Source: a virus
IMG/VR virus record: IMGVR_UViG_3300021962_000787
Span: 1-20,848 of that record
DNA length: 20,848 nt
Direction: 5' to 3' (one strand)
Both the position numbers and the translations under genes were made by a program. Of the stretch, positions 1,742-20,848 are shown one piece after another. The notes beneath the pieces were generated by a model that worked only from the letters and a program-made list of their open reading frames with translations, was not told the DNA's origin and ran no database searches. The first letter of the stretch is position 1; each line of letters starts with the position of its first letter.

Positions 1742-3082
1742 CTAGTCTAAAACTAAATTATTACTGTATTTGAATTTAACAGGGTATCTCCCTTGTGTTT
1801 CTAAGATTTTCTTTAAGTCTTCTAAGGTTTCTTTACCATCCTCAAGGTAGAAATCAAATAGGATAGCATCATAAGTATATAACGTAACCTTTGTTTTCTT
1901 AGCTCTTAGATAGCTCAGCACTTCTTTTAATATAAGAACGTTTCTTGAGGTCTCCAACGATTGAATCACATAATTGAATAATTTTTGCGGATTCATATCT
2001 TTTAACGTAGAGTAGAAGGGCTTTTGTGAGATAGGAGCATAGACTACACCATTCTCTACGTACTCCTTCCATAATTTATTAATATACTCAGCTACCTTAT
2101 CAAAGAATTCAATATGACGATACTTATCCGGCACTCCTCCGTACATAATCTGGAAAGTAGTCTGTTTGGACTGTTTATACTCCTCTTCAGTTAAGGTTTC
2201 TTTGTCAAAGTACATCCTTCCTAGCTGAGTATGTACACTTTCAGGTGTAAACTCGTAGCCGACTACCTCTCCAATGAGTCTTATATGGTAGCCATCAAAG
2301 TCAAACTCTACAAACTTGTCTCCTTTTGGGATGAAGCACTTTCGGTACTCCTCCTTCTTGGGGATTGCAGCATAGTTGACAGAATTAAAGGCAGAAGTAG
2401 GACGGCTAGTGGGATTATAGAGATTGTAATTAGTATAAGCAATATTATTCGCAATACTAAAGCGAGGATTTGCAGGGGTAAACTTCTCCAGAAACTGTTC
2501 ATACGTTACTCTTATACCTGATTGTTCAGATAAATAGAAGACTCCCATGGCTAGGTTGTTGTAGAACTTCCAGGCCGGCAAGTCTAGTATATATTTACTA
2601 TCCTCTATAACATCTAACAGGCTTCTATAGTTTCTCTCGCACTTCTCAAAAAGTTTAGGTAGAGGGATAATAGAATTAAGATCTTCTTTATCCTGTAGTC
2701 TATTATAAAACCACTGTATGGTCTGAGGAGGGTCTGGAAGCTGTAAGCTTTCATACTCTCTCATAGAGTACATTAGGTTGATATCATTGATATTACCGTG
2801 AGAGAAATGATATAAGAACGTCTTCTTGTTAAACGTATACAGTGTATCAAAGCAATTTAGGATGCTCTGTATGCGATCTTTAGTTACATTAAGTCCTTCG
2901 GTGTGATTTACTGGAATAATGTATCCCTCATGGTAGCCGATAGGGCGTATATAAGCAGCCACAGTCCCAGTAAGTAGACTATGATAACGGTCATTCCCCG
3001 AAATAATCTCAACGTACGCTTCATTTCGTCCTAATGCACATAAATAATTTAGCTGTTCGTCGCTTTCAACGATATAAAACAT
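1742..3082 (-). CDS. Family A DNA polymerase with degenerate exonuclease-like N-terminus
   Basis: A 446-residue pol I-family polymerase, probably the phage replicase. Polymerase motifs are clear: 'TSRPTSAFNSVNYAAIP' (225-241, with R227 matching Pol I R668); motif A DFDGYHIR (261-268, catalytic D261); motif B K306-x3-F310-x3-Y314; N370/Q374 matching Pol I N845/Q849; motif C YTYDAILFD (402-410, catalytic D405). Departures from the family: the steric-gate Glu (Pol I E710) is His266, the HDE of motif C is Tyr-Asp-Ala, and the Arg754 position is Tyr. Residues 20-110 follow the 3'-5' exonuclease fold ('GYIIPVNHTEGL', 'FNKKTFLYHF') but the metal-binding Asp/Glu positions read E25, I27 and F89, so proofreading is probably lost. 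No 5' nuclease domain. T4 itself uses a family B enzyme. The start at 3082 follows a 40-base leader with the shared 13-mer and no Shine-Dalgarno. Confidence 0.85.
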   Translation of the reverse strand: MFYIVESDEQLNYLCALGRNEAYVEIISGNDRYHSLLTGTVAAYIRPIGYHEGYIIPVNHTEGLNVTKDRIQSILNCFDTLYTFNKKTFLYHFSHGNINDINLMYSMREYESLQLPDPPQTIQWFYNRLQDKEDLNSIIPLPKLFEKCERNYRSLLDVIEDSKYILDLPAWKFYNNLAMGVFYLSEQSGIRVTYEQFLEKFTPANPRFSIANNIAYTNYNLYNPTSRPTSAFNSVNYAAIPKKEEYRKCFIPKGDKFVEFDFDGYHIRLIGEVVGYEFTPESVHTQLGRMYFDKETLTEEEYKQSKQTTFQIMYGGVPDKYRHIEFFDKVAEYINKLWKEYVENGVVYAPISQKPFYSTLKDMNPQKLFNYVIQSLETSRNVLILKEVLSYLRAKKTKVTLYTYDAILFDFYLEDGKETLEDLKKILETQGRYPVKFKYSNNLVLD

Positions 3083-3122: not shown

Positions 3123-3680
3123 TCATTTTACAAACTGAGCAGGATCTTTTAAGTAAGAGCTAATACCTGGGAGTCTTTTTTCTGCTAACTGCATAACTGT
3201 ACGGTTACTTCCTATATTGCGTAAGCTCCAACTTAAAGCTAACAGTTCATATTTAGGGTAGTAGTACTTGATTTCTTTTTTACTAATTGATTCGTAGACG
3301 TCTTTACGAACTTCTAAGATTCTTCCAATAGTTTTATCTCTAAGAAAGTATCTTAGTAATTCTCCCTTAGTGTAGTTTTCTTGTGAAGGCACAGGGTAGT
3401 ATATATTTACAGGTTCTGTAACGCGTAGTTTAAGAGCTTCTACATCTTGTCTTATAATATCGTACTGTTCAGGTGTAATCAGTACTGGGGGCTGTTCAGA
3501 GACGGTTTCATTAAAGACTAACTTCTGGGCTCCTTTCTGTAACGGGGAAGTACCTGTGTATATTTCTCCACTAAATGTTTCAAAATAAGGACCGGTATAA
3601 GGTTCTCTTGTACTCTCAATCAGCAGACTATTTCCTGCTGTCTGTAGACCTGTTTTATATTTGCTTTTGGGTAAATACAT
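3123..3680 (-). CDS. Unrecognised protein at the end of the baseplate operon
   Basis: A 185-residue protein that starts MYLPKSKYKTGLQT. The open frame extends upstream to a TTG at 3704 inside the hub gene, but the ATG at 3680 lies one base after the hub stop (TAA-C-ATG), which fits the tight spacing of this operon and is preferred. Residues 1-70 are rich in Gly, Thr, Tyr and Pro ('EPYTGPYFETFSGEIYTG') and look like beta structure or an extended arm. Residues about 80-185 are helical and basic, including 'RYFLRDKTIGRILEV' and 'LLALSWSLRNIG'. There is no signal peptide, membrane segment or enzymatic motif. As the last gene after tape measure, LysM protein and hub, a baseplate or tail-tip part is likely, but only by position. 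Confidence 0.75.
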   Translation of the reverse strand: MYLPKSKYKTGLQTAGNSLLIESTREPYTGPYFETFSGEIYTGTSPLQKGAQKLVFNETVSEQPPVLITPEQYDIIRQDVEALKLRVTEPVNIYYPVPSQENYTKGELLRYFLRDKTIGRILEVRKDVYESISKKEIKYYYPKYELLALSWSLRNIGSNRTVMQLAEKRLPGISSYLKDPAQFVK

Positions 3681-7462: not shown

Positions 7463-8527
7463 TTATTTAAAGGCCGGTAAGCCGTTTGCAATAAAAGGTA
7501 ATTCAAAATCTGTACTATCTCCTGTGAATCTTTGAGGTAGCTTATAATGAATAATATTCATAGAAATCTGCAATTTAATAACTTGAGGTAGTAGTACAGG
7601 TACATCATCTTTCTCATTACTTGACCACGGTACATCTACTTCCACAGTGTCTGCAATGCTTGTAATAACTCCATACTGGGATAGATAATCTCCTATTCTA
7701 ATAGCTGTAACAGTACCTTGTGGTAGGTTGTCAACGTATTTAGGGTATGTATGTGATATTAACGAATTCACTTTTTGATATGCAGCGTGTTGTTCAGCTT
7801 CACTAAAGATAGGAACTGTTAACCCAAAAGACAACGTTCTGCCGGTATTTGTGTAAGTATAGAGAGGTTCTCCTCTACCTACATACTGTACAGTAGTCCA
7901 GCTAGGATTAAAACTATTTGAAATTCCTTGTATAAAACCTCTAAAAAGTAATGTTGAATTAGTTTCACCTACTATTCGAAAGACAACCGGCAGTGACTCT
8001 TTCTTAAGTAGTTCTTGTACATTACTACTGATTCCAACGGTACCTATTTCATCAGAAGTACCTGCTCCTGCGAATCCTTGCTCATCCCAGGTTTGAGCTC
8101 CTTTCATTCGTTTATTATTCTTACTAATAAACACCTTACCGGAGTACTTAGCCTCTGAAGCAGCATTAGTAGAATTAATATAGGTAACGTATTCTCTTCT
8201 TAGTAAAGCTGCTACTTCGTTTGCCGCAAAATGGGTGCCGGTTCCTGAGACTGGTACCTGAGCTAAGATAGCTGCTAAAGCTGAAGCGTATCCAACTGCT
8301 CCATTTTGAGCTGACTTTAGTAGATCTTGCCTACCTTGTCCAGTAGCAAAAGATGCTTTATTTAAAGTATCTGCTGTTTCAGAAGCTCTTAAGATAGTCT
8401 GATTGATTGCAAAGTTAGCTCCGGTAGTAGTTAACGGATTAAGAATTTTAGCAATTCTAATCGTATCATCTCTACGAGCTCTAGTCTGTAGAGTTAGGTT
8501 ATCTTTAAAATCTCGAATTAGTGGCAT
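7463..8527 (-). CDS. Probable baseplate tube-junction protein (gp48/gp54-like candidate)
   Basis: A 354-residue virion protein. The N-terminal ~110 residues are polar and helical, with many Ala and Thr. The C-terminal two thirds is beta-rich, with 'FRGFIQGISNSFNPSWTTVQYVGRGEPLYTY' followed by 'GRTLSFGLTVPIF', 'IRIGDYLSQYGVITSI' and 'VEVDVPW'. This pattern (deviation from a tube-like barrel, with a Y-x-GRGEP turn) is what I associate with baseplate proteins that cap or start the tail tube. It lies between tape measure and LysM protein, where tube-initiator genes such as T4 48 and 54 or P2/Mu-type equivalents are found. The ATG overlaps the tape measure stop by one base (TAATG). Exact equivalence to gp48 or gp54 is not shown; structural role is fairly sure. 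Confidence 0.6.
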   Translation of the reverse strand: MPLIRDFKDNLTLQTRARRDDTIRIAKILNPLTTTGANFAINQTILRASETADTLNKASFATGQGRQDLLKSAQNGAVGYASALAAILAQVPVSGTGTHFAANEVAALLRREYVTYINSTNAASEAKYSGKVFISKNNKRMKGAQTWDEQGFAGAGTSDEIGTVGISSNVQELLKKESLPVVFRIVGETNSTLLFRGFIQGISNSFNPSWTTVQYVGRGEPLYTYTNTGRTLSFGLTVPIFSEAEQHAAYQKVNSLISHTYPKYVDNLPQGTVTAIRIGDYLSQYGVITSIADTVEVDVPWSSNEKDDVPVLLPQVIKLQISMNIIHYKLPQRFTGDSTDFELPFIANGLPAFK

Positions 8528-10824
8528 TAGATTGCGTAGTTATTTCCTGAGGCTAATCCTAACCCCACCTGGTTACTGTCCATATAAATTCTAGCTTCTT
8601 TTTCTGCTAACTTACGTAGAGCATCTTCTTGTTTTTTGTTTTGCTCTTCTTCTCTTCTCTTACGCTCTTCTTCTCTTTGTTCAGCGCCTCTTTCAGATGC
8701 CTCTAATGCTCCAGAAAGCAATCCGATTGCTCCTCCAACAATAGCACCTGCTGCTGTACCAATACCCGGTACGATAGATCCTATAGCAGCTCCGTATAAT
8801 GCTCCTTGACCAGCTCCTGATACTACATCTGTAGTTTTTGCAGCTGCTATGTTACCTTCCTCTTCAAATTCGTCGGCAAAGTAATTACCTCCCATTTGAA
8901 CTAAAGCTCCTCCGAGAGCAAAACCGCCTGCTCTCATCATATTACCTTTACTGAGGTTGAGCATCTTACCTGCAGAACCAGGCGTTCCGCCTCCGGCTCC
9001 TCCTAATCCAACTTCTTTAGTGAACATTGGGGTTAACGGAGTTGCACCTTTAAGTCCTCCTAAGAGTGACTTACCTAGAGCAACTACAGCCATTCCAGTA
9101 CCTCCCATACCCATCACAAACTTAGTAATAGGGCTAGAAGCTAGACTTGAGATGAAGTCAGCAATCTTGTCTATAGTACCACTTTCGTCTAATTCAGCAA
9201 AGAAGTCTGCAAATGCTCCTTGAAGTTTAATTACAACATCTTCAAACTTTTTAGTTGCATCAGCTTGCTCCTGTACCTGTCTTAATGCTTCACCTATCGA
9301 TAATTCTTCATTACGAGCTTTAGCAGCATCTACTAATGCTTGAGCATTTTGTAACTGTTCGTCAGAAGCTGCTTTAGCTCTATCTCCTAACTTATTAATC
9401 ATGTCCTGCCTTAAAAGGACTGTACCCATTTGATCAGCAGTCATACCTAAAGCTTTCGCAATAGATTCACGCTGGATAACGGACATGTTTTGGAAGTCGT
9501 TTAGTGTACCTACCTCACGGTTAAGTTCTCTCATTAGAGTTACATCGTCACCTCTTAGCGATGCTAAACGAGCTTGTTCTAAATTAAGATCTTTACCAGT
9601 TAGTACTTCTGCTTCTAGTTCATCTGAGATAGATTGTTCGAAGTTAAGAAGTTGATTTGCAGTGTTTCTTATTTGCTCGAAAGACATTCCTAGCTTTTCA
9701 GCCATTACAATGCCTTCTGCTAAAGCTTTTGGACTATTCCTGAAGTTGAGTAATGTTGTAGTAGAGAGACCTTTAATCTTCTCCATTATTTGACTCAACG
9801 GCATATGGACTTTTAGGTTCTGTCCTGCCTCATTAGCAGCAGACGCCAGACTTGAAGCATATTCACTAGAACTTACTCCTAAGTTCATAGAAAGCTGCTC
9901 TACTTTTGCAGCAGCTTCTGCTGATGCTCCTAAGTATTCTGTATTTCTTATGAAGTTTTTAGTTGCATCGCCACTAAACTCTACCGATACTCCGAGAGAC
10001 TTATTAAGTTCTCCATTAGCTTTTACTAACTTAATAGTAGCGATTCTAGCGTCTTCAGAATTTTCTGCTACTTCCCTAAAGCGGTTAGCCATTTCTCGGC
10101 CACCTTGCATCCCAATACCGAGCTGCTTATTAAAGTCCCCAGCTACTGTACTAGCAGTAAATAGAGACTTAATTATAGCTGCGGGACCTATGAGTTTTGC
10201 AAACTCTCCTGCTGCTACTGCAGCACCTTTGAGATTTGCTTGTAACTTACTAGCTCCGTTCTCAGCTGCGTCTTTTGCAGAGGCTGCTGCTTTTTCAAAT
10301 GGTGCGCTTAACGTTCGACCGAGTACGGGTATTGAACCTAATGCATCTGCAAGTTTTTGAAATCCTTTGCCTGCTTCTACTACTTTTTTAGATTGATCAG
10401 CAACTGCTTCCATTCCTTTAGCTGATGCTTTGACTGTTTGTTCAAAATCAAGAAGAGTCTCTAAGGTCTTCATTATAGCCTTAGTTTCGTCTTCAGTAGC
10501 AGTTTTTACTTTTTCTAAAAGAATGATTCTTTGAACTTCAGTCTTAAGGAGAGCTTTTTTAATTTTATTGTTAGATTCGATTATTTTTTCATAATCTCTT
10601 TCACTCTCAATATTTTTATTTAGCTCATCAGCAATACTCTGGTATGCCTTCTTAGTCTCGGTAATATTACGACGGGCACGAGTACTTATACCGTCTGTGG
10701 CTTGCGCCAAACCGGCAAGCTGCTTAGACATACTTGCAATCTGTGAAGCGGTTTGTTCTGCTTCAACAGCCATTTGTTTTGCGTCTAAGTTTCCTAAAGG
10801 TATTCTTTGTGGATCGTCGGCCAT
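8527..10824 (-). CDS. Tail tape measure protein
   Basis: A 765-residue protein with the features of a tape measure: long helical, Ala/Lys/Glu-rich coiled coil at residues 10-170, further helices to about 560, then hydrophobic Gly/Ala-rich segments near 575-605 ('FVMGMGGTGMAVVALGKSLLGGL') and 680-710 ('GAAIGSIVPGIGTAAGAIVGG'), and a very charged helix (about 715-745) before the end. Tape measures fix tail length and leave through the tube at infection, where the hydrophobic parts may cross membrane. At about 1.5 angstrom per residue the tail would be roughly 110 nm, similar to T4 (gp29, 590 residues, about 100 nm). No lysozyme domain is seen. It follows the chaperone gene pair, as in most long-tailed phages, and has its own TATTTATA box 17 nt upstream. 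First gene of a five-gene overlapping operon. Confidence 0.88.
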   Translation of the reverse strand: MADDPQRIPLGNLDAKQMAVEAEQTASQIASMSKQLAGLAQATDGISTRARRNITETKKAYQSIADELNKNIESERDYEKIIESNNKIKKALLKTEVQRIILLEKVKTATEDETKAIMKTLETLLDFEQTVKASAKGMEAVADQSKKVVEAGKGFQKLADALGSIPVLGRTLSAPFEKAAASAKDAAENGASKLQANLKGAAVAAGEFAKLIGPAAIIKSLFTASTVAGDFNKQLGIGMQGGREMANRFREVAENSEDARIATIKLVKANGELNKSLGVSVEFSGDATKNFIRNTEYLGASAEAAAKVEQLSMNLGVSSSEYASSLASAANEAGQNLKVHMPLSQIMEKIKGLSTTTLLNFRNSPKALAEGIVMAEKLGMSFEQIRNTANQLLNFEQSISDELEAEVLTGKDLNLEQARLASLRGDDVTLMRELNREVGTLNDFQNMSVIQRESIAKALGMTADQMGTVLLRQDMINKLGDRAKAASDEQLQNAQALVDAAKARNEELSIGEALRQVQEQADATKKFEDVVIKLQGAFADFFAELDESGTIDKIADFISSLASSPITKFVMGMGGTGMAVVALGKSLLGGLKGATPLTPMFTKEVGLGGAGGGTPGSAGKMLNLSKGNMMRAGGFALGGALVQMGGNYFADEFEEEGNIAAAKTTDVVSGAGQGALYGAAIGSIVPGIGTAAGAIVGGAIGLLSGALEASERGAEQREEERKRREEEQNKKQEDALRKLAEKEARIYMDSNQVGLGLASGNNYAI

Positions 10825-10854: not shown

Positions 10855-10873
10855 GCCTCTATTTTGTAGAGGC
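10855..10873 (-). terminator. Hairpin at the end of the chaperone extension
   Basis: The coding strand reads GCCTCTA-CAAAA-TAGAGGC, a perfect 7-bp stem with a 5-base loop, followed by TTTCC. The stop codon TAG (10861-10859) lies in the 3' arm. The T-tract is short, so it is a weak terminator or an mRNA 3'-end/processing hairpin. It sits directly upstream of the tape measure promoter candidate. Confidence 0.5.
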
Positions 10874-11044
10874 CTTCGTAGTATAAGTTGGTTTAGGTAT
10901 TGGAGGACGTACTAGACTACTGTTTTGAGGGGTTGCTTGCTGGATACCTTGGGCTTTTCTTTGAGCTTCTTCCTGGGCTTCTCTCTGCTTATCGTAGTAT
11001 TCTTTAATGGATTGTGCAGTAAACTTTCTTAACCATATAGGCAT
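10859..11044 (-). CDS. gp51-like downstream chaperone domain, probably made only by frameshift
   Basis: A 61-codon frame starting MPIWLRKFTAQSIKEYYDKQ, then a Gln/Ala/Glu-rich helix and a Pro/Thr tail. The frame is open much further upstream: from 11140 there are 32 more sense codons (GLTREYRTQVFNQVHEIVFH, then GNGGYDWQTVYN) before this ATG. The extended peptide looks like the conserved second half of tail assembly chaperones in T4-like phages, so the internal ATG is probably not the start. No Shine-Dalgarno lies near it; GGAGGA is about 19 nt upstream, too far. Expression is therefore best explained as an extension of the gp26-like gene by frameshift. Independent translation from 11044 remains possible. 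The last codons overlap a hairpin. Confidence 0.7.
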   Translation of the reverse strand: MPIWLRKFTAQSIKEYYDKQREAQEEAQRKAQGIQQATPQNSSLVRPPIPKPTYTTKASTK

Positions 11045-11126
11045 ATTGTAAACTGTCTGCCAATCGTATCCTCCGTTACCATGAAATACTATTTCATGTA
11101 CCTGATTAAATACTTGGGTTCTATAC

Positions 11127-11858
11127 TCACGCGTCAGGCCAAAAAAAGCTAATAGTTATAGGGAGAGCGACCTCCTCTTCGCTCCCATCTGAATTAGTGT
11201 AAGTAAACTTAAGATCTAGGTCTGGTGCAGTATTAGAGTAAGCTTCTCTGATCGCTCTAGCATCTTTGGCAAGTAAGAACTGATCTACAAATTTTCTAAT
11301 GTCACCTAACTCTCTACTACCGTTAACAGAAGTTACCATATACTTTAGACGAGTGGTTACTTCAGCAATGTTTTCTTTATTAATCTTCTGTAGACCTTTA
11401 ATCTCTTTTTCAATATCTACTTCGTCTTTATGTGTTAAGAGTCTATAGGTAATTTCATATTTAGAGACCGGTAGTATTAAGCTAAATTCGTTTTGACCTC
11501 TAACGTACTCAATATCAGTCTTTTTAGGCTCCATTAACGAAAGATCTACTGTAATCTCTTCGCTGTTGTAATTCACCGGGTAGTCTTTACCGTAGGATAA
11601 AATTCTAGCTGCTATCATAATAGCATTTTTATCACCTATAAGTAGGTCACCGTAGTCAAATTTAGTAATAAGTAAAGATTGAAGTAACTTATCAATTACA
11701 ACACCGCTCTTAATATAATTTTGGTTTGTTAAGATATCTTCTTCTTTAGCAGTCATGTACTTCATTTCAACTGTACCGCTTGCTAGTGGGTGACCTTCTG
11801 GGTAGAGTAGTCCTTTAGAAGGTAATTCGATAGTCTCTGTTGGTAGATTAAATTCCAT
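11127..11858 (-). CDS. gp26-like baseplate/tail assembly chaperone (T4_baseplate family)
   Basis: A 243-residue protein of the family that includes T4 gp26. The start 'TIELPSKGLLYPEGHPLASGTVEMKYMTAKEEDILTN' spans residues 9-45 and, with 'SGVVIDKLLQSLL' after it, is the recognisable signature. A central region has 'LSYGKDYPV' and 'FSLILPVSKYEITYRLLTHKDE'. Long classed as a hub assembly protein, this family takes the place of the tail assembly chaperone upstream of the tape measure in many phages, and acts on tape measure/hub assembly in the cytoplasm. The end 'ISFFWPDA' is encoded by AGC TTT TTT TGG, a slippery run, then stop at 11127; a second open frame continues beyond. Its leader has a terminator and a TATTTATA box, so it is its own transcription unit with the extension. 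Confidence 0.82.
   Translation of the reverse strand: MEFNLPTETIELPSKGLLYPEGHPLASGTVEMKYMTAKEEDILTNQNYIKSGVVIDKLLQSLLITKFDYGDLLIGDKNAIMIAARILSYGKDYPVNYNSEEITVDLSLMEPKKTDIEYVRGQNEFSLILPVSKYEITYRLLTHKDEVDIEKEIKGLQKINKENIAEVTTRLKYMVTSVNGSRELGDIRKFVDQFLLAKDARAIREAYSNTAPDLDLKFTYTNSDGSEEEVALPITISFFWPDA
11141..11147 (-). promoter_or_regulatory. Slippery T7 run for +1/-2 programmed frameshift
   Basis: The coding strand reads AGC TTT TTT TGG CCT GAC GCG TGA. A -1 shift meets TGA after TTG GCC and is useless; a +1 (skip one T) or -2 shift gives TTT GGC CTG or GGC CTG and enters the long open second frame. Phage Mu is known to use -2 and phage PSA +1 in the same gene pair. Confidence 0.7.
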
Positions 11859-11952: not shown

Positions 11953-12438
11953 TTAGAAGTTCAGTACGCAGTAGTCCATCGCAATTGTTAATTCAACTGA
12001 GATAGCTTCGTCTGTAGACCAGTTGTACTGTCCAAAGTTAGAAGACTGTACGAATGCACCTTTGATGACCCATTCACCAATAATATCACCTACAGGACCT
12101 AACATGTTAAGAGTTATAATCTTCTTGTAGAAGTCTGCGTATCCAGCACGACCAGTTACTGATTCGTATCCTAAACGAGCCCACTCCATAACAGCCTGTG
12201 CACCAGAAGGAGTAATCGGATCGTAAAGGCTAAGAGTCATATTCTGCCACTCTCTCTTACCGCGGAGCTTTCTATAAGTGTTGATATGATCAAGCTTGAT
12301 AACACCGTCAGTGAAGGAAGGTGAAGTTACGCTCTTAACCATATATGATGGAATTCCATCGATGTACATGATAAATCTGTTCGTTACCTTCGGTTCGAAG
12401 GCTGTGAACATGATTTCGTTTGGATCTAGTACTGGCAT
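11953..12438 (-). CDS. 19: Tail tube protein, gp19-like
   Basis: The 161-residue inner tube subunit of the contractile tail; T4 gp19 has 163 residues. The start 'DPNEIMFTAFEPKVTNRFIMYIDGIPSYMVKSV' and the core 'INTYRKLRGKREWQNMTLSLYDPITPSGAQAVMEW' (residues about 48-85) match the T4-like tube family, which also includes type VI secretion Hcp in fold. The end 'AISVELTIAMDYCVLNF' fits the final beta strand. It stacks in rings inside the sheath and is the channel for DNA. It follows the sheath gene as in T4, has its own TATTTATA box 22 nt upstream and is followed by a strong terminator, as expected for a protein needed in many copies. There is no Shine-Dalgarno; the leader is A-rich. Confidence 0.93.
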   Translation of the reverse strand: MPVLDPNEIMFTAFEPKVTNRFIMYIDGIPSYMVKSVTSPSFTDGVIKLDHINTYRKLRGKREWQNMTLSLYDPITPSGAQAVMEWARLGYESVTGRAGYADFYKKIITLNMLGPVGDIIGEWVIKGAFVQSSNFGQYNWSTDEAISVELTIAMDYCVLNF

Positions 12439-15655: not shown

Positions 15656-18631
15656 TTATCCTGCGAGCATTACACTGAATTTATTCCCGGACGTTGTGGT
15701 AAATTCTGCTCTCTGTTCTTCTTGTAATACTACAATAGATGCAAGATTACCCAGCGCCTCGCCATCTTGTGTTACTGGGATAGCATCTCCTTTAGCATTA
15801 AGTAGACTGTTAACTTCTGATTCTGTATAGTATCTATCGTCGTGAGTGTGGGAAGACGGGCTAAAAGTAGTTGGCTTACCTGATACGTTGCTCCAAGCAA
15901 CTGAACCAGCGCTGTCTGCATACCCTGCGGATATTTTTTGCCATCCTCCTAATACCCTGTTTTCTTCAAAGCGAACAGAAATATAAGGACTAGCAGTGTT
16001 CCTAGGGATAGCTAACTGCATTCCATATGTATTGTAGTCGTACTCATTTCCTAATCCTACTGTAAGTGCATAGAATTGGTTAGGGCTAGTGTCAGTACCC
16101 GGGCCGTTGGTGTTTCCTTGAACGAATCTCCACCCAAAGCCAGTGCTTAGAGTTCCGCCAGCAGCATCAAAGGATGTTCTAGTACTGTGGTTATCCCCGA
16201 AGTTATTCCACCATCTACTAGCATCAGTGATTGATCCAATACCGTGAGTATGTGAAGATGCTGCTTTAGTACCTAATAGAGTATCTACTTCCGATTCTGT
16301 ATAGTAACGGTCATCGTGAGTGTGAGAAACTGCTGCTGCATAACTCCCAATATTTGAGCTATCTAGAATCTTTCTCCATCCGTACTGTGTTCCGTTAGTC
16401 ATTCTACTTACATAGAAATCATCTCCGTGGAAGTTATGAGCAAGTTTAAAATCGTAGTTATTATCACTTGTCCATGAAGCGCCGGCAATTGTTATCCAGT
16501 TCCACCATTCTGTATATGGTGCTCCACCTGGGTTATACCCGTAGAAGAATCCTCCCTCTTGAGCTCGAGAAACCATACTGCTATCGTTTCTGGTAGATTT
16601 TCTAGAGTTTGCACCGTAAACAATTCTCGATGAATCTATACCGTCTATAAGTTCTGAATCTGCTGCTTTTGCAGTTGATCCTAGTTTACCGGCTAATAAA
16701 GTATCTACCTCCGATTCTGTATAGTAACGGTCATCGTGAGTGTGAGAAGGTAAGGCTGTTAAAGCATAGTTTCCAACATTAGAGCTATCTAAAATAGTTT
16801 TCCATTCAGTCCAGCTATCTGATACTGCTGCATCATTATCTGCGCTTCTTACTCTTAAGGAAGTACCTCCGTAGTTTGAACCATGGCCCATATAGAGCTG
16901 AAAGTCACCTCCTGCATCGCTTCCTCCGCGTGCTCCTACATGAAGCACTGCGCCGTAGTTTGGCCAGCCGTTAGCGGCTTGTACAAATGAGGTTTGAATT
17001 CCAGTAGTATAATCTCCTGCTCTAGTGTCTGCACTCCATACATAGTTTCCTTGTGTAAGAACTATATTGTGAGTATGTGAGGATGCTGCTTTGGTACCTA
17101 ATAAAGTATCTACTTCTGATTCAGTATAATAACGGTCATCGTGAGTGTGATTACCAGCAGCTGCATCAGTAGCTCCAGTACCTAAAGGTCTCCAGGTATT
17201 AGTGTCGGTGTCTGTGGAAGTAATAGTTATAGTACCAGCGTTCTTAGTAACTGTGGTAGCTCCAGCTCCTCTAATTACTATATCTCCAGATGATACATCA
17301 TCCGCTACACCTACTCTAGTTACAGTATTAACATACGAAGTGATATATCCTGAGTCATTGGTAAATGAAGATACGTTTGTAGGTCTGTCTGTTATATCAG
17401 TCCATACGTGAGTATGTGAAGGTAGAGATGTTAAAGCATATGAGCTAACATTACGGGAGGTTACTGTTACAGCAGCAGGGCGCTCTTGTTCAACAGTATC
17501 AAAAGAGGTTACCGGTGTGATTGACCATCCTGTTGCCCAATCGGAATCAATAGAATTATACCCAGATTGGAATTCAGTTACATATACTTGAGGGTAAGAC
17601 CAAGAAGAATTTGTCTCTCCGATCCATATACAATCCCCAGTACTGTCGTATCCAAATCTTACTGTTAACTGTACTCCAGCATCACTTATCTGGTGTGCAA
17701 ATAAATTATACCAGTTTCCTCCTGCGTAGTTATAACCTCCTAGTTCAATGGTGTAAGAATTACCGGTATTGTACTGGTAGATCTTTACAGTCATTCTCAT
17801 CATTGTAGATGAGTTGTTTTTACGTGTAGGTAGCTTAATTTTAAATGCTCCTGTTACTGTAGAAGTACTTGTTGTATAAACAGCACCTTCAGGAGCATAC
17901 ACTCTAGCACCTTCAAAACCAACTGTAGTGCCTCGGAAGAACGGGTATCCTCCGTTACGGTATATGGTAGTATTCCACCCGTCATTAGATGCATTAAGTG
18001 TTCTATAATCACCAGCGTTTTGAATCCACGATCCTACTTCAAATCCTGCATTAACATATACGCTTTTACTTCCGTATGAACGAATCCATGAAGAATCAAT
18101 CATGTACCAGCCACCGCCATGGGTCTCAAAGTATAATCCGTCGTTACCGGAAACTCTTACCCAACCTCCGTTTGCATAGATATCTCCTTTTACGTGAAGC
18201 TTGTAGTCAGGGTCAGCAGCACTAAAGTTACCAATTCCTAATTTATTTCCTTGTATAGCTAAACCGTCGGTTGGTCTGGCGATATCAGCAGGTTCTCCGT
18301 CATATCCTGTAGCTAAGAAAATCATACCGTCAGCACTCTTAGCCCAAATTCTTAACTCTGCATCAGCATCATCGTGTTGGCGAATACCTGTTCTCCAAGT
18401 TGAAACACTACCAAACACAATAGACCCCTCGTAGTTTCCAGCATGAAGGTTAAGTTTTCCTGTTAATGTTCCTCCTGCTAGTGGAAGGTAGTCGTGAGTA
18501 TGAGAAGCTGCAGCGAAGGCGGTAGCTTGGTTCCCGTCTAGAGTATCTGCATCTAGGCCAGAGCTAGCTCCATCATTAGCCGATGTCCAGATCTGTCCTC
18601 CTGATATGTAGACTGTATCTTTAAGTTTCAT
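15656..18631 (-). CDS. Tail fibre protein with HxH repeats and knob-like modules
   Basis: A 991-residue receptor-binding or fibre-shaft protein. Eight His-x-His motifs are present, four of them in the fuller repeat 'SHTHDDRYYTESEVDTLL'. In T4 gp37, HxH motifs bind iron along a trimeric shaft, so the same build is likely. 'YLPLAGGTLTGKLNL' near residue 50 is a tail-fibre strand repeat. Three modules between the repeats end in a knob signature: 'SWTEWKTILDSS', 'YGWRKILDSS' and 'LGGWQKIS', like pyocin-knob domains. Residues about 160-400 form a different beta-rich region. The C-terminus ('IPVTQDGEALGNLASIVVL') shows no obvious chaperone/autocleavage domain. The ATG at 18631 overlaps the stop of the preceding fibre gene by one base (TAATG), so the two are co-translated. 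DNA repeats inside match those in the neighbouring gene. Confidence 0.85.
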   Translation of the reverse strand: MKLKDTVYISGGQIWTSANDGASSGLDADTLDGNQATAFAAASHTHDYLPLAGGTLTGKLNLHAGNYEGSIVFGSVSTWRTGIRQHDDADAELRIWAKSADGMIFLATGYDGEPADIARPTDGLAIQGNKLGIGNFSAADPDYKLHVKGDIYANGGWVRVSGNDGLYFETHGGGWYMIDSSWIRSYGSKSVYVNAGFEVGSWIQNAGDYRTLNASNDGWNTTIYRNGGYPFFRGTTVGFEGARVYAPEGAVYTTSTSTVTGAFKIKLPTRKNNSSTMMRMTVKIYQYNTGNSYTIELGGYNYAGGNWYNLFAHQISDAGVQLTVRFGYDSTGDCIWIGETNSSWSYPQVYVTEFQSGYNSIDSDWATGWSITPVTSFDTVEQERPAAVTVTSRNVSSYALTSLPSHTHVWTDITDRPTNVSSFTNDSGYITSYVNTVTRVGVADDVSSGDIVIRGAGATTVTKNAGTITITSTDTDTNTWRPLGTGATDAAAGNHTHDDRYYTESEVDTLLGTKAASSHTHNIVLTQGNYVWSADTRAGDYTTGIQTSFVQAANGWPNYGAVLHVGARGGSDAGGDFQLYMGHGSNYGGTSLRVRSADNDAAVSDSWTEWKTILDSSNVGNYALTALPSHTHDDRYYTESEVDTLLAGKLGSTAKAADSELIDGIDSSRIVYGANSRKSTRNDSSMVSRAQEGGFFYGYNPGGAPYTEWWNWITIAGASWTSDNNYDFKLAHNFHGDDFYVSRMTNGTQYGWRKILDSSNIGSYAAAVSHTHDDRYYTESEVDTLLGTKAASSHTHGIGSITDASRWWNNFGDNHSTRTSFDAAGGTLSTGFGWRFVQGNTNGPGTDTSPNQFYALTVGLGNEYDYNTYGMQLAIPRNTASPYISVRFEENRVLGGWQKISAGYADSAGSVAWSNVSGKPTTFSPSSHTHDDRYYTESEVNSLLNAKGDAIPVTQDGEALGNLASIVVLQEEQRAEFTTTSGNKFSVMLAG
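15816..17152 (-). repeat. DNA repeats coding 'HTHDDRYYTESEVD' in the downstream fibre gene
   Basis: Four copies lie near 15816-15850, 16291-16327, 16711-16747 and 17116-17150. The second and third are identical over 37 bases and differ at one base over about 47. A wider block at 16246-16291 also matches 17071-17116 with few changes. Identity at the DNA level beyond the protein need suggests recent duplication or homogenising recombination. Confidence 0.8.
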
Positions 18632-20848
18632 TATATTAACCTTCTAAATTTAAACACATACCTTGAACTTCCAGTATTGTCTGTATCCCCTGCCATCTCT
18701 AAATACATATTTCCATCATTTGCTCCTGGTGTACGTTTTGTACGTAGGTAAATTCTACCACTATTTGGAGCGTGACCAGCTCTGTGCAGCACTATTTCGT
18801 CTGTAACAGTTGAATTTGTTGCTGTTCCGAACCAGGACATTGTACCTGAGTAGTACTCTGTGTAATGTCCTCCTCCTACTGCGTAGTCATTTACATATAC
18901 CTGTACTATGTAGGTACCTGTTGATAAGGTATTACCTCTAATACTTGTAGCCTGCCAGTCTGTTCTTAACGTCATATCTACGTTGACTGTAACTAATCCC
19001 AATAGGTCTGCTGAATCTGTAGAATCTTTTCTGGCAAATCTAGTATCAGATTCAGTTTCTGTGTAGTAACGGTCATCGTGAGTGTGGTTACCAGCAGCTG
19101 CATCAGTAGCTCCAGTTCCTAGCGGTCTCCAAGTGTTAGTATCAGTAGAACTAACTACTCCGTTTGTATCAATACTTAAGTTTGTACCAATCTTAATACC
19201 TCCTAAAGTACTAGCTGATGCTATAGGTAGTGAGTAATTGTTTGCATTAGCAGCAATACCGTCTAACTTTGTACCATCAGTAGCTATATCTCTACCGTCT
19301 ACTGTACCTGCTAAAGTTATATTACCTCCTATGTAAAGGTTACTATTAACTGCCCATTGTCTGGATGTTTTTACAATATCGTTACTGTCTCCAGATGGCT
19401 CTTCTGCCTGGCCGGCGGCTGTTCCAAAAGTTAATGCTCTATTCTCTTCTTCCCAGAACTCAACCTCCATTGTAAAGGTATCTCTCCAGTCACCAGCCAT
19501 CTGAGCCCATACCTCGTATGAGTTTCTAAGCCCGGATGCTGATGTTCTAATGGATTTTACTGCTTTAAATATAGAAGCTGTATTATCAATAGAGTACCAG
19601 TATAGGTCGTGGTTTTCTTGAGTACTTCCTCCGTTTTCATATAGAACATGAATAACTTCTGTACCGATTGCTACATCGTCGTATCCATTTAACTTAGCTT
19701 TAATGAGAGCTTTATCGTAAGATCCTACTATCTCTACGCTAAATAAATGTACCCATTTTCCGTTGATACTTCCACCGTTTACTCCTACTGATCTAACCTT
19801 AAAGTACTTTCTCCATCCGTAAGCATAGTGGAATAATGTAGGGACTATAGTAGGAGCAGTTAAAGTACCGGTCATAGTACCTCCTGCTAATTTTAAGAAC
19901 CTACTATCAGATTCAGTCTCAGTAAAATAGCGATCATCGTGATCGTGAGAAGGTAAGGATGTTAGGTAGGTACCTGATGCTTGTTTACCGGCTAATAGAG
20001 TATCTACTTCTGTCTCGGTGTAGTAACGATCGTCATGGGTATGAGACGGTAAAGATGTTAGGGCGTAAGAGCCAATATTTCCCGATGTAAGTATAGTGCT
20101 AGGAGAGTATACGTTATCTATGTGTACAAATCCGTTAAACGAATCACCTCCTCCTCTTTCTTTAGTCCAGCCTACACCCTGTAGGTGTAGTCTACCTACA
20201 CGTCCTTTAAGCCTTATGGTAGTAAACCTGTCAACGCCTTCAACCTTGTACATATGGGATCCAGCGTGATCGAGGCTAACACTTTCATGTTGTACATCCT
20301 GGAAATCGTTTATACGTTTAATCCATAATGCTGTTCCGTTGGATTTGACTCCGTAGACGTCAAAATACCCTGTGTTCGACCATGCTAATGTAGAGATATG
20401 CATCATCTTCATACCGGACGGTACAGCAAAGTCAATACTATAACCACTAGCATCTGCAGTTCTACCGCTAACATCAGTATATATTCTACCAGAAGTACTT
20501 CTTAAAGTAGCATCCCAATAGTTATCATCTGAGGGGTTCCATCCTCCTACTCTATCGGAAAATCCGTTGCTTACATTAGTAGTACTATCCCAAGTATTAG
20601 TTAATTTACCATCTAAATAACTATTAACTTCAGTTTCGGTGTAGTATCGGTCATCGTGAGTGTGATTACCGGCTGCGGCATCAGTAGCACCGGTACCTAG
20701 CGGTCTCCAAGTGTTAGTATCCGTAGAGCTTAATACTCCTTCAGATATTGAGAGATTAGTTCCTACCTTAATACCGCCTAGCACACTAGCAGAAGCTACA
20801 GGTAGTGAGTAATTATTAGCACTTGCTGCTATACCGTCTAGCTTAGAC
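18631..20848 (-). CDS. Tail fibre protein, C-terminal part (gene runs off the right edge)
   Basis: At least 738 residues of a second fibre protein. An apparent GTG start at 20784 is internal: the frame stays open to the window end and encodes SKLDGIAASANNYSLPVASA, the same block that recurs within this protein as 'TKLDGIAANANNYSLPIASASTLGGIKIGTNLSI'. Four HxH repeats ('HTHDDRYYTET', once 'HDHDDRYFTET') divide it. 'LKLAGGTMTGTLTAP' is a fibre strand repeat as in T4 gp12/gp37-type proteins. Between repeats lie three unlike beta-rich domains: one ending 'RLHLQGVGWTKERGGG', one starting 'GWRKYFKVRSVG' and rich in Trp, and the C-terminal one ending 'SSRYVFKFRRLI'. It is the first of the two fibre genes and its stop overlaps the next ATG. 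Likely role: host-range fibre, shaft or joint partner of the downstream protein. Confidence 0.85.
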   Translation of the reverse strand, partial: SKLDGIAASANNYSLPVASASVLGGIKVGTNLSISEGVLSSTDTNTWRPLGTGATDAAAGNHTHDDRYYTETEVNSYLDGKLTNTWDSTTNVSNGFSDRVGGWNPSDDNYWDATLRSTSGRIYTDVSGRTADASGYSIDFAVPSGMKMMHISTLAWSNTGYFDVYGVKSNGTALWIKRINDFQDVQHESVSLDHAGSHMYKVEGVDRFTTIRLKGRVGRLHLQGVGWTKERGGGDSFNGFVHIDNVYSPSTILTSGNIGSYALTSLPSHTHDDRYYTETEVDTLLAGKQASGTYLTSLPSHDHDDRYFTETESDSRFLKLAGGTMTGTLTAPTIVPTLFHYAYGWRKYFKVRSVGVNGGSINGKWVHLFSVEIVGSYDKALIKAKLNGYDDVAIGTEVIHVLYENGGSTQENHDLYWYSIDNTASIFKAVKSIRTSASGLRNSYEVWAQMAGDWRDTFTMEVEFWEEENRALTFGTAAGQAEEPSGDSNDIVKTSRQWAVNSNLYIGGNITLAGTVDGRDIATDGTKLDGIAANANNYSLPIASASTLGGIKIGTNLSIDTNGVVSSTDTNTWRPLGTGATDAAAGNHTHDDRYYTETESDTRFARKDSTDSADLLGLVTVNVDMTLRTDWQATSIRGNTLSTGTYIVQVYVNDYAVGGGHYTEYYSGTMSWFGTATNSTVTDEIVLHRAGHAPNSGRIYLRTKRTPGANDGNMYLEMAGDTDNTGSSRYVFKFRRLI
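19049..20784 (-). repeat. DNA repeats in the upstream fibre gene
   Basis: 'HTHDDRYYTE' units lie near 19049-19087, 19905-19950, 20005-20045 and 20629-20665. A longer block coding 'GGIKxGTNLSI ... DTNTWRPLGTGATDAAAGN' is present at about 20665-20784 and 19087-19205, and its second half again in the next gene at 17150-17215. Modules have thus been copied within and between the two genes. Confidence 0.75.

Follow-up and report, generated by a model that had tools for sequence, protein, structure and literature searches.

A conserved UUU_Y site predicted to fuse gp26-like and gp51-type tail assembly chaperone frames by +1 frameshifting in T4-like phages

The phage analysed here very probably makes two tail assembly chaperones (TACs) from one mRNA, by a programmed +1 slip at a UUU_Y site. 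That programmed frameshifting joins a gp26-like frame (TAC-N) to a gp51-type frame (TAC-C), as the original prediction proposed, is strongly supported by sequence comparison: site and second frame are conserved among relatives, coding constraint extends upstream of an internal ATG, and two relatives have lost site and fused frame together. Most ribosomes would stop at the TGA of TAC-N and release a protein of 243 aa, while a fraction would slip one base forward at the U-run and produce a long form, TAC-NC. By analogy with lambda gpG/gpGT, many copies of TAC-N and few of TAC-NC would coat the tape measure, and TAC-C would recruit tail tube subunits. We infer the occurrence of slippage, its rate and the chaperone function of the products from the anatomy of the locus, its conservation, the coding constraint and a spectrum of +1-compatible sites, all of which are observed.

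Anatomy of the locus and identity of its proteins

The window is the whole 20,848-nt stretch of IMG/VR record IMGVR_UViG_3300021962_000787. Its features at and around the chaperone locus are as follows.

11127..11858, minus strand: TAC-N, gp26-like tail assembly chaperone of 243 aa, the product of standard decoding (ORF, PF12322, phrog_150, AF2 model)
11141..11147, minus strand: slip site, seven T in AGC TTT TTT TGG, with UUU then U at both in-frame Phe codons (sequence)
10859..11140, minus strand: TAC-C, +1 frame of 93 codons (GLTREYR...STK), ending at TAG 10861-10859
11127..11129, minus strand: TGA, terminator of TAC-N without a shift (sequence)
11042..11044, minus strand: internal ATG, Met of MPIWLRKF, in phase with TAC-C (sequence)
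11171..11175, minus strand: GGAGG element, candidate stimulator, 23 nt 5' of the first slip codon (enrichment in relatives)
11953..12438, minus strand: tail tube protein, gp19-like, upstream neighbour (phrog_4542, E 5.5e-21)
8527..10824, minus strand: tape measure-like protein of 765 aa, downstream neighbour (position as in immuto; weak phrog_1047 match)

The 3' end of the gp26-like gene reads AGC TTT TTT TGG CCT GAC GCG TGA on the minus strand, with the T-run and its codons where they had been predicted. The distance from the run to the TGA, given earlier as 13 nt, is 11 nt. The frame reached by +1 or -2 is indeed open from 11140 to 10861. It spans 93 codons, includes the ATG at 11044 in phase, and its product begins GLTREYRTQVFNQVHEIVFHGNGGYDWQTVYNMPIWLRKF; a -1 shift meets a stop after two codons, again as anticipated. 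Joined to TAC-N through Phe239, TAC-C would give a TAC-NC of ~332 aa. The tail genes of the window run from sheath and tube through TAC-N and TAC-C to tape measure, the tape measure-like gene being placed where Flavobacterium phage immuto has its annotated tape measure, and a TAC pair also lies between tube and tape measure in annotated immuto, SP-15 and LIS04. Tail assembly chaperones are encoded at this position. Elsewhere in the window, 1742-3082 (minus strand) encodes a 446-aa protein that adjoins a gp32-like single-strand binding protein and has a sub-threshold match to family A DNA polymerase, whereas T4's own polymerase belongs to family B. Two very long tail-fibre-like genes with common repeats such as WRPLGTGATDAAAGNHTHDDRYYTE occupy 15656-20847 (minus strand).

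TAC-N matches PF12322 (T4_baseplate) with 37.9 bits (cut-off 24.5) and phrog_150 with E 7.9e-15. The N-terminal 200 residues of T4 gp26 and of T4 gp51 also match both families, and T4 gp51 has an additional C-terminal domain beyond that region. The second frame, described earlier as gp51-like, corresponds only to this C-terminal domain, and the whole of gp51 corresponds to the whole TAC-NC fusion. The AF2 model of TAC-N has a pLDDT of 93.6. In a Foldseek search of the PDB its sole sensible match, of low confidence, was the HK97 TAC (2ob9; prob 0.63, TM 0.50 on target, E 0.56); matches to actin in the same search were dismissed as noise. Distant TAC-N relatives carry two CxxC pairs resembling a zinc ribbon, and the cysteines have been lost in the window's lineage.

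TAC-C is modelled by AF2 as a confident helical domain (helices 4-20, 27-31 and 35-69) with no disordered stretch at its start. Profiles of TAC-C and of the C-terminal domains found in T4 gp51 and cyanophage TAC-C matched weakly in hhalign (59.5%, E 9e-5), which makes homology suggestive, not firm. Pfam and NCBIfam held no usable family for TAC-C, and phrog_634 was weakly matched by 3 of 39 TAC-C sequences (best E 0.012). Ten of the 39 matched Pfam DUF6760 weakly (best E 0.002), a domain on which a literature search returned nothing.

Conservation of the slip site and the open second frame

We assembled 217 distinct loci from six IMG/VR scans and phage records; these are related sequences, not independent samples. 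In 215 of them the corresponding Phe-Phe or Phe-Leu codons retain an in-frame UUU with U or C after it, and the +1 frame is open; this count includes two contigs (L248 and L264) that end soon after the slip site. The commonest site is TTT TTT TGG (139 loci), followed by TTT CTT TGG (53), TTC TTT TGG (11) and CTT TTT TGG (3); the others are TTT TTT TAC/TAT/TTC (5), TTT CTA TGG (2), TTT CTA TTC (1) and TTC TTT CGT (1). Relatives with a broken T-run, part of a case named beforehand as damaging to the prediction, therefore exist (TTT CTT TGG, TTC TTT TGG, TTT CTA TGG), and these too keep both UUU_Y and the open frame. Where the second slip codon encodes Phe it is UUU in 153/153 cases; elsewhere in gp26, Phe codons are 80% UUU and 20% UUC. 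The -1 frame is shut after two codons in 126/157 relatives. A search of genome contigs for more distant, non-phage relatives yielded just four phage-like contigs from bacterial bins, and the arrangement is kept in these as well.

UUU_Y is lost only in L105 and L110, whose sites read TTC TTG TAT and TTC CTT TGG, respectively. In both, the +1 frame is closed and TAC-C (L105 2193-2543, L110 2193-2510) starts at an ATG of its own, 2-5 nt past the gp26 stop. The two form one clade in the TAC-N tree (100/100). UUU and the fused frame have thus been lost together, as judged from these sequences, in a single evolutionary event. Since one clade lives without it, the fusion is not strictly required.

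Shift direction, alternative explanations and a candidate stimulator

The original prediction left the choice between +1 and -2 open. It had the frame right, and the sites of relatives favour +1. On seven-T sites alone, -2 re-pairing is as good as +1: tRNA-Phe in the P site finds equally good pairing after moving back two bases, and a -2 shift into the same frame, adding one Phe, has a precedent in phage Mu (PMC5009743). Other sites separate the two. TTC TTT TGG (11 loci), TTC TTT CGT (GXN1), CTG TTT CGC (GiJojo, BRock) and CTG TTT CAG (LuckySocke) all allow perfect +1 re-pairing, from UUU to UUU or UUC, and poor re-pairing on -2, which would land tRNA-Phe on UCU or UGU. TTT CTA TGG and TTT CTA TTC mispair under -2 too and are compatible with +1 only if the slip occurs at the first Phe codon, and SP-15 (TTT TTT CAC) and LIS04 (TTT TTT AGT) also fit +1. 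A -2 shift is thus very unlikely, and a single rule covers all sites: tRNA-Phe slipping by +1 from a P-site UUU that precedes a pyrimidine. In the A site UGG predominates, which is not obviously slow. Slippage of RNA polymerase on the T-run, with mixed mRNAs yielding both products, is highly improbable. Seven T is close to a slip-prone length, but the same open frame is found with runs of four T (TTCTTTTGG) or three T (TTTCTTTGG, 53 loci), so that transcriptional slippage is excluded as a general mechanism. Gain or loss of one base would moreover reach both other frames, and -1 is mostly closed at once.

That TAC-C might instead be a separate small gene, read from the internal ATG at 11044 or by coupled reinitiation, is very unlikely, although it has precedents close at hand: a small separate ORF is annotated in immuto (GenBank), Cygsa01 has a TAATG overlap, and L105 and L110 use their own ATG. 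Against it, the sequence from the gp26 stop to the MPxW motif evolves as +1-frame coding sequence: over 93 sister pairs, differences at codon positions 1, 2 and 3 number 278:171:793, and residues upstream of the ATG are conserved. From slip site to motif, 141/203 loci have no ATG, GTG or TTG, and in 66/203 all three are absent as far back as the upstream stop; in 19/203 relatives there is no ATG up to the internal-ATG point, where some have L, F or W. With start codons so scarce, a separate start is not the general solution. The internal ATG probably does not begin a gene of its own: initiation there, at residue 33, would drop the first two, confidently modelled helices of TAC-C. This ATG does lack a Shine-Dalgarno sequence, as noted originally, but that has no bearing on the matter, since almost all genes of the window, gp26 included, lack one. 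A homopolymer sequencing error splitting one gene is scarcely credible: homopolymers are error-prone, but the same arrangement occurs in >200 contigs and in the isolates RM378, immuto, SP-15 and GXN1, and also where no long homopolymer is present.

Returning to +1 slippage at UUU_Y, a candidate stimulator lies upstream of the site. GGAGG occurs 5' of the first slip codon in 129/217 loci, against 24.7 expected from synonymous shuffling, and in 48/88 loci of a non-redundant set, against 4.8 expected; every other 24-nt bin of gp26 holds 0-4 occurrences in these 88. Its spacing is nearly always 23-29 nt and it occurs in more than one codon phase, which indicates a constraint acting on nucleotides. 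Pairing with rRNA stimulates frameshifting at 3 nt in prfB and at about 10 nt in dnaX. The spacing of 23-29 nt is too wide for a Shine-Dalgarno stimulator like either of these. RNAalifold on 20 relatives found no supported conserved structure and no downstream RNA structure; the lone helix it proposed, pairing GGAGG with the T-run, was rejected, as it had no covariation and would melt under the ribosome.

Relation to known frameshifting systems

The gp26 genes of cyanophages, pelagiphages and jumbo phages resemble that of the window in having a homologous TAC-N, a slip at the homologous Phe-Phe codons and TAC-C downstream, and differ in keeping the -1 frame open, with U UUU UUC or something close to it at the site. 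That heptamer, the canonical one for -1 shifts, occurs together with a -1-frame TAC-C in cyanophages S-RIM8 and S-CAM8, pelagiphage Mosig, BUCT-ZZ01, Moby, RaK2, Atu_ph07, MIJ3 and Vibrio phage Bakedbeans. LR756511 also carries the heptamer, and RHph_I46 and XacN1 carry variants of it. The Phe codons of the -1 phages, of the window and of T4 gp26 (EFFELL) share one alignment position. In a TAC-N tree of 53 sequences, the +1 members, apart from the Streptomyces phages, are all placed on one branch (97/96) that also holds L105, L110 and LR756511, and T4, the cyanophages and their allies fall on a different branch; the deeper joins are unsure, with long branches. Synechococcus phage S-SCSM1 has TCT TTT TTC near 3185 (L089), yet its TAC-C lies in the +1/-2 frame, unlike the -1 of other cyanophages, which may be genuine or may reflect an error in the sequence.

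Lambda gpG/gpGT, a short form and a form extended by -1 frameshifting (PMC5009743), occupies the same place in the tail operon and likewise pairs short and extended products; lambda shifts by -1 where the window would shift by +1 on UUU_Y, and no sequence similarity was detected. Other phage tail genes reach the +1 frame, namely those of Mu (-2), of archaeal myovirus HSTV-2 (+1, predicted) and of Listeria PSA/A118 (tsh, +1) (PMC5009743, PMC3498833). Mu differs from the window in its -2 shift, PSA in shifting at CCC_UGA in its major tail protein, not in a TAC, and none of these genes was matched to the T4 gp26 family. A parallel in the site itself is influenza A PA-X (UCC_UUU_CGU), with P-site UUU, then C, and a +1 shift: experiments have proven +1 shifting at UUU_CGU, and the authors of that work predicted a broader class of UUU_C sites (PMC3498833). 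GXN1 carries a UUU_CGU identical to the influenza A site and two Streptomyces phages carry UUU_CGC. The influenza A case differs in its eukaryotic ribosomes and unrelated protein, and most sites in the window's group are UUU_U with UGG in the A site.

We tentatively offer a broader reading, which is possible but rather doubtful. A large T4-like lineage, with hosts among Bacteroidota, cyanobacteria, Firmicutes and Streptomyces, would use a +1 slip of tRNA-Phe on UUU_Y, the class predicted from influenza PA-X, at the Phe-Phe codons where its sisters use -1; the direction would have switched on a homologous site, and GGAGG 23-29 nt upstream, beyond known Shine-Dalgarno effects, would stimulate the shift by an undescribed route.

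The original prediction considered a T4-type pair expressed by frameshifting in the rare direction to be notable, and the frameshifting part was anticipated: Vladimirov, Gautam and Davidson (2022, Virology 566:9-15) are said to have recognised the gp26/gp51 family as TAC-N and TAC-NC, and reportedly proposed TAC frameshifting in several T4-like groups, with separate genes in T4. Their TAC work is cited in PMC12846349 and PMC10885494, and a citing paper calls their poly-T sites -1. Set against those T4-like TACs, as that citing paper portrays them, the window locus differs in its use of the +1 frame and in having its gene placed between tube and tape measure. For T4-like groups, frameshifting of TACs has thus been proposed already, and the +1 UUU_Y mode is apparently new. 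The papers that we searched contained no description of this mode, of the switch in direction or of a GGAGG ~25 nt upstream, which is not proof of absence. The long fused chaperone is unannotated in all the isolate genomes of the +1 group that we examined, so that their annotation can be corrected. In immuto (L001 3001-3243), GXN1 (L004 3216-3497), LIS04 (L277), RM378 (L005) and SP-15 (L276) the fusion has been missed, and the deposited records either list TAC-C as a short hypothetical protein that begins at a start codon of its own or leave it unannotated.
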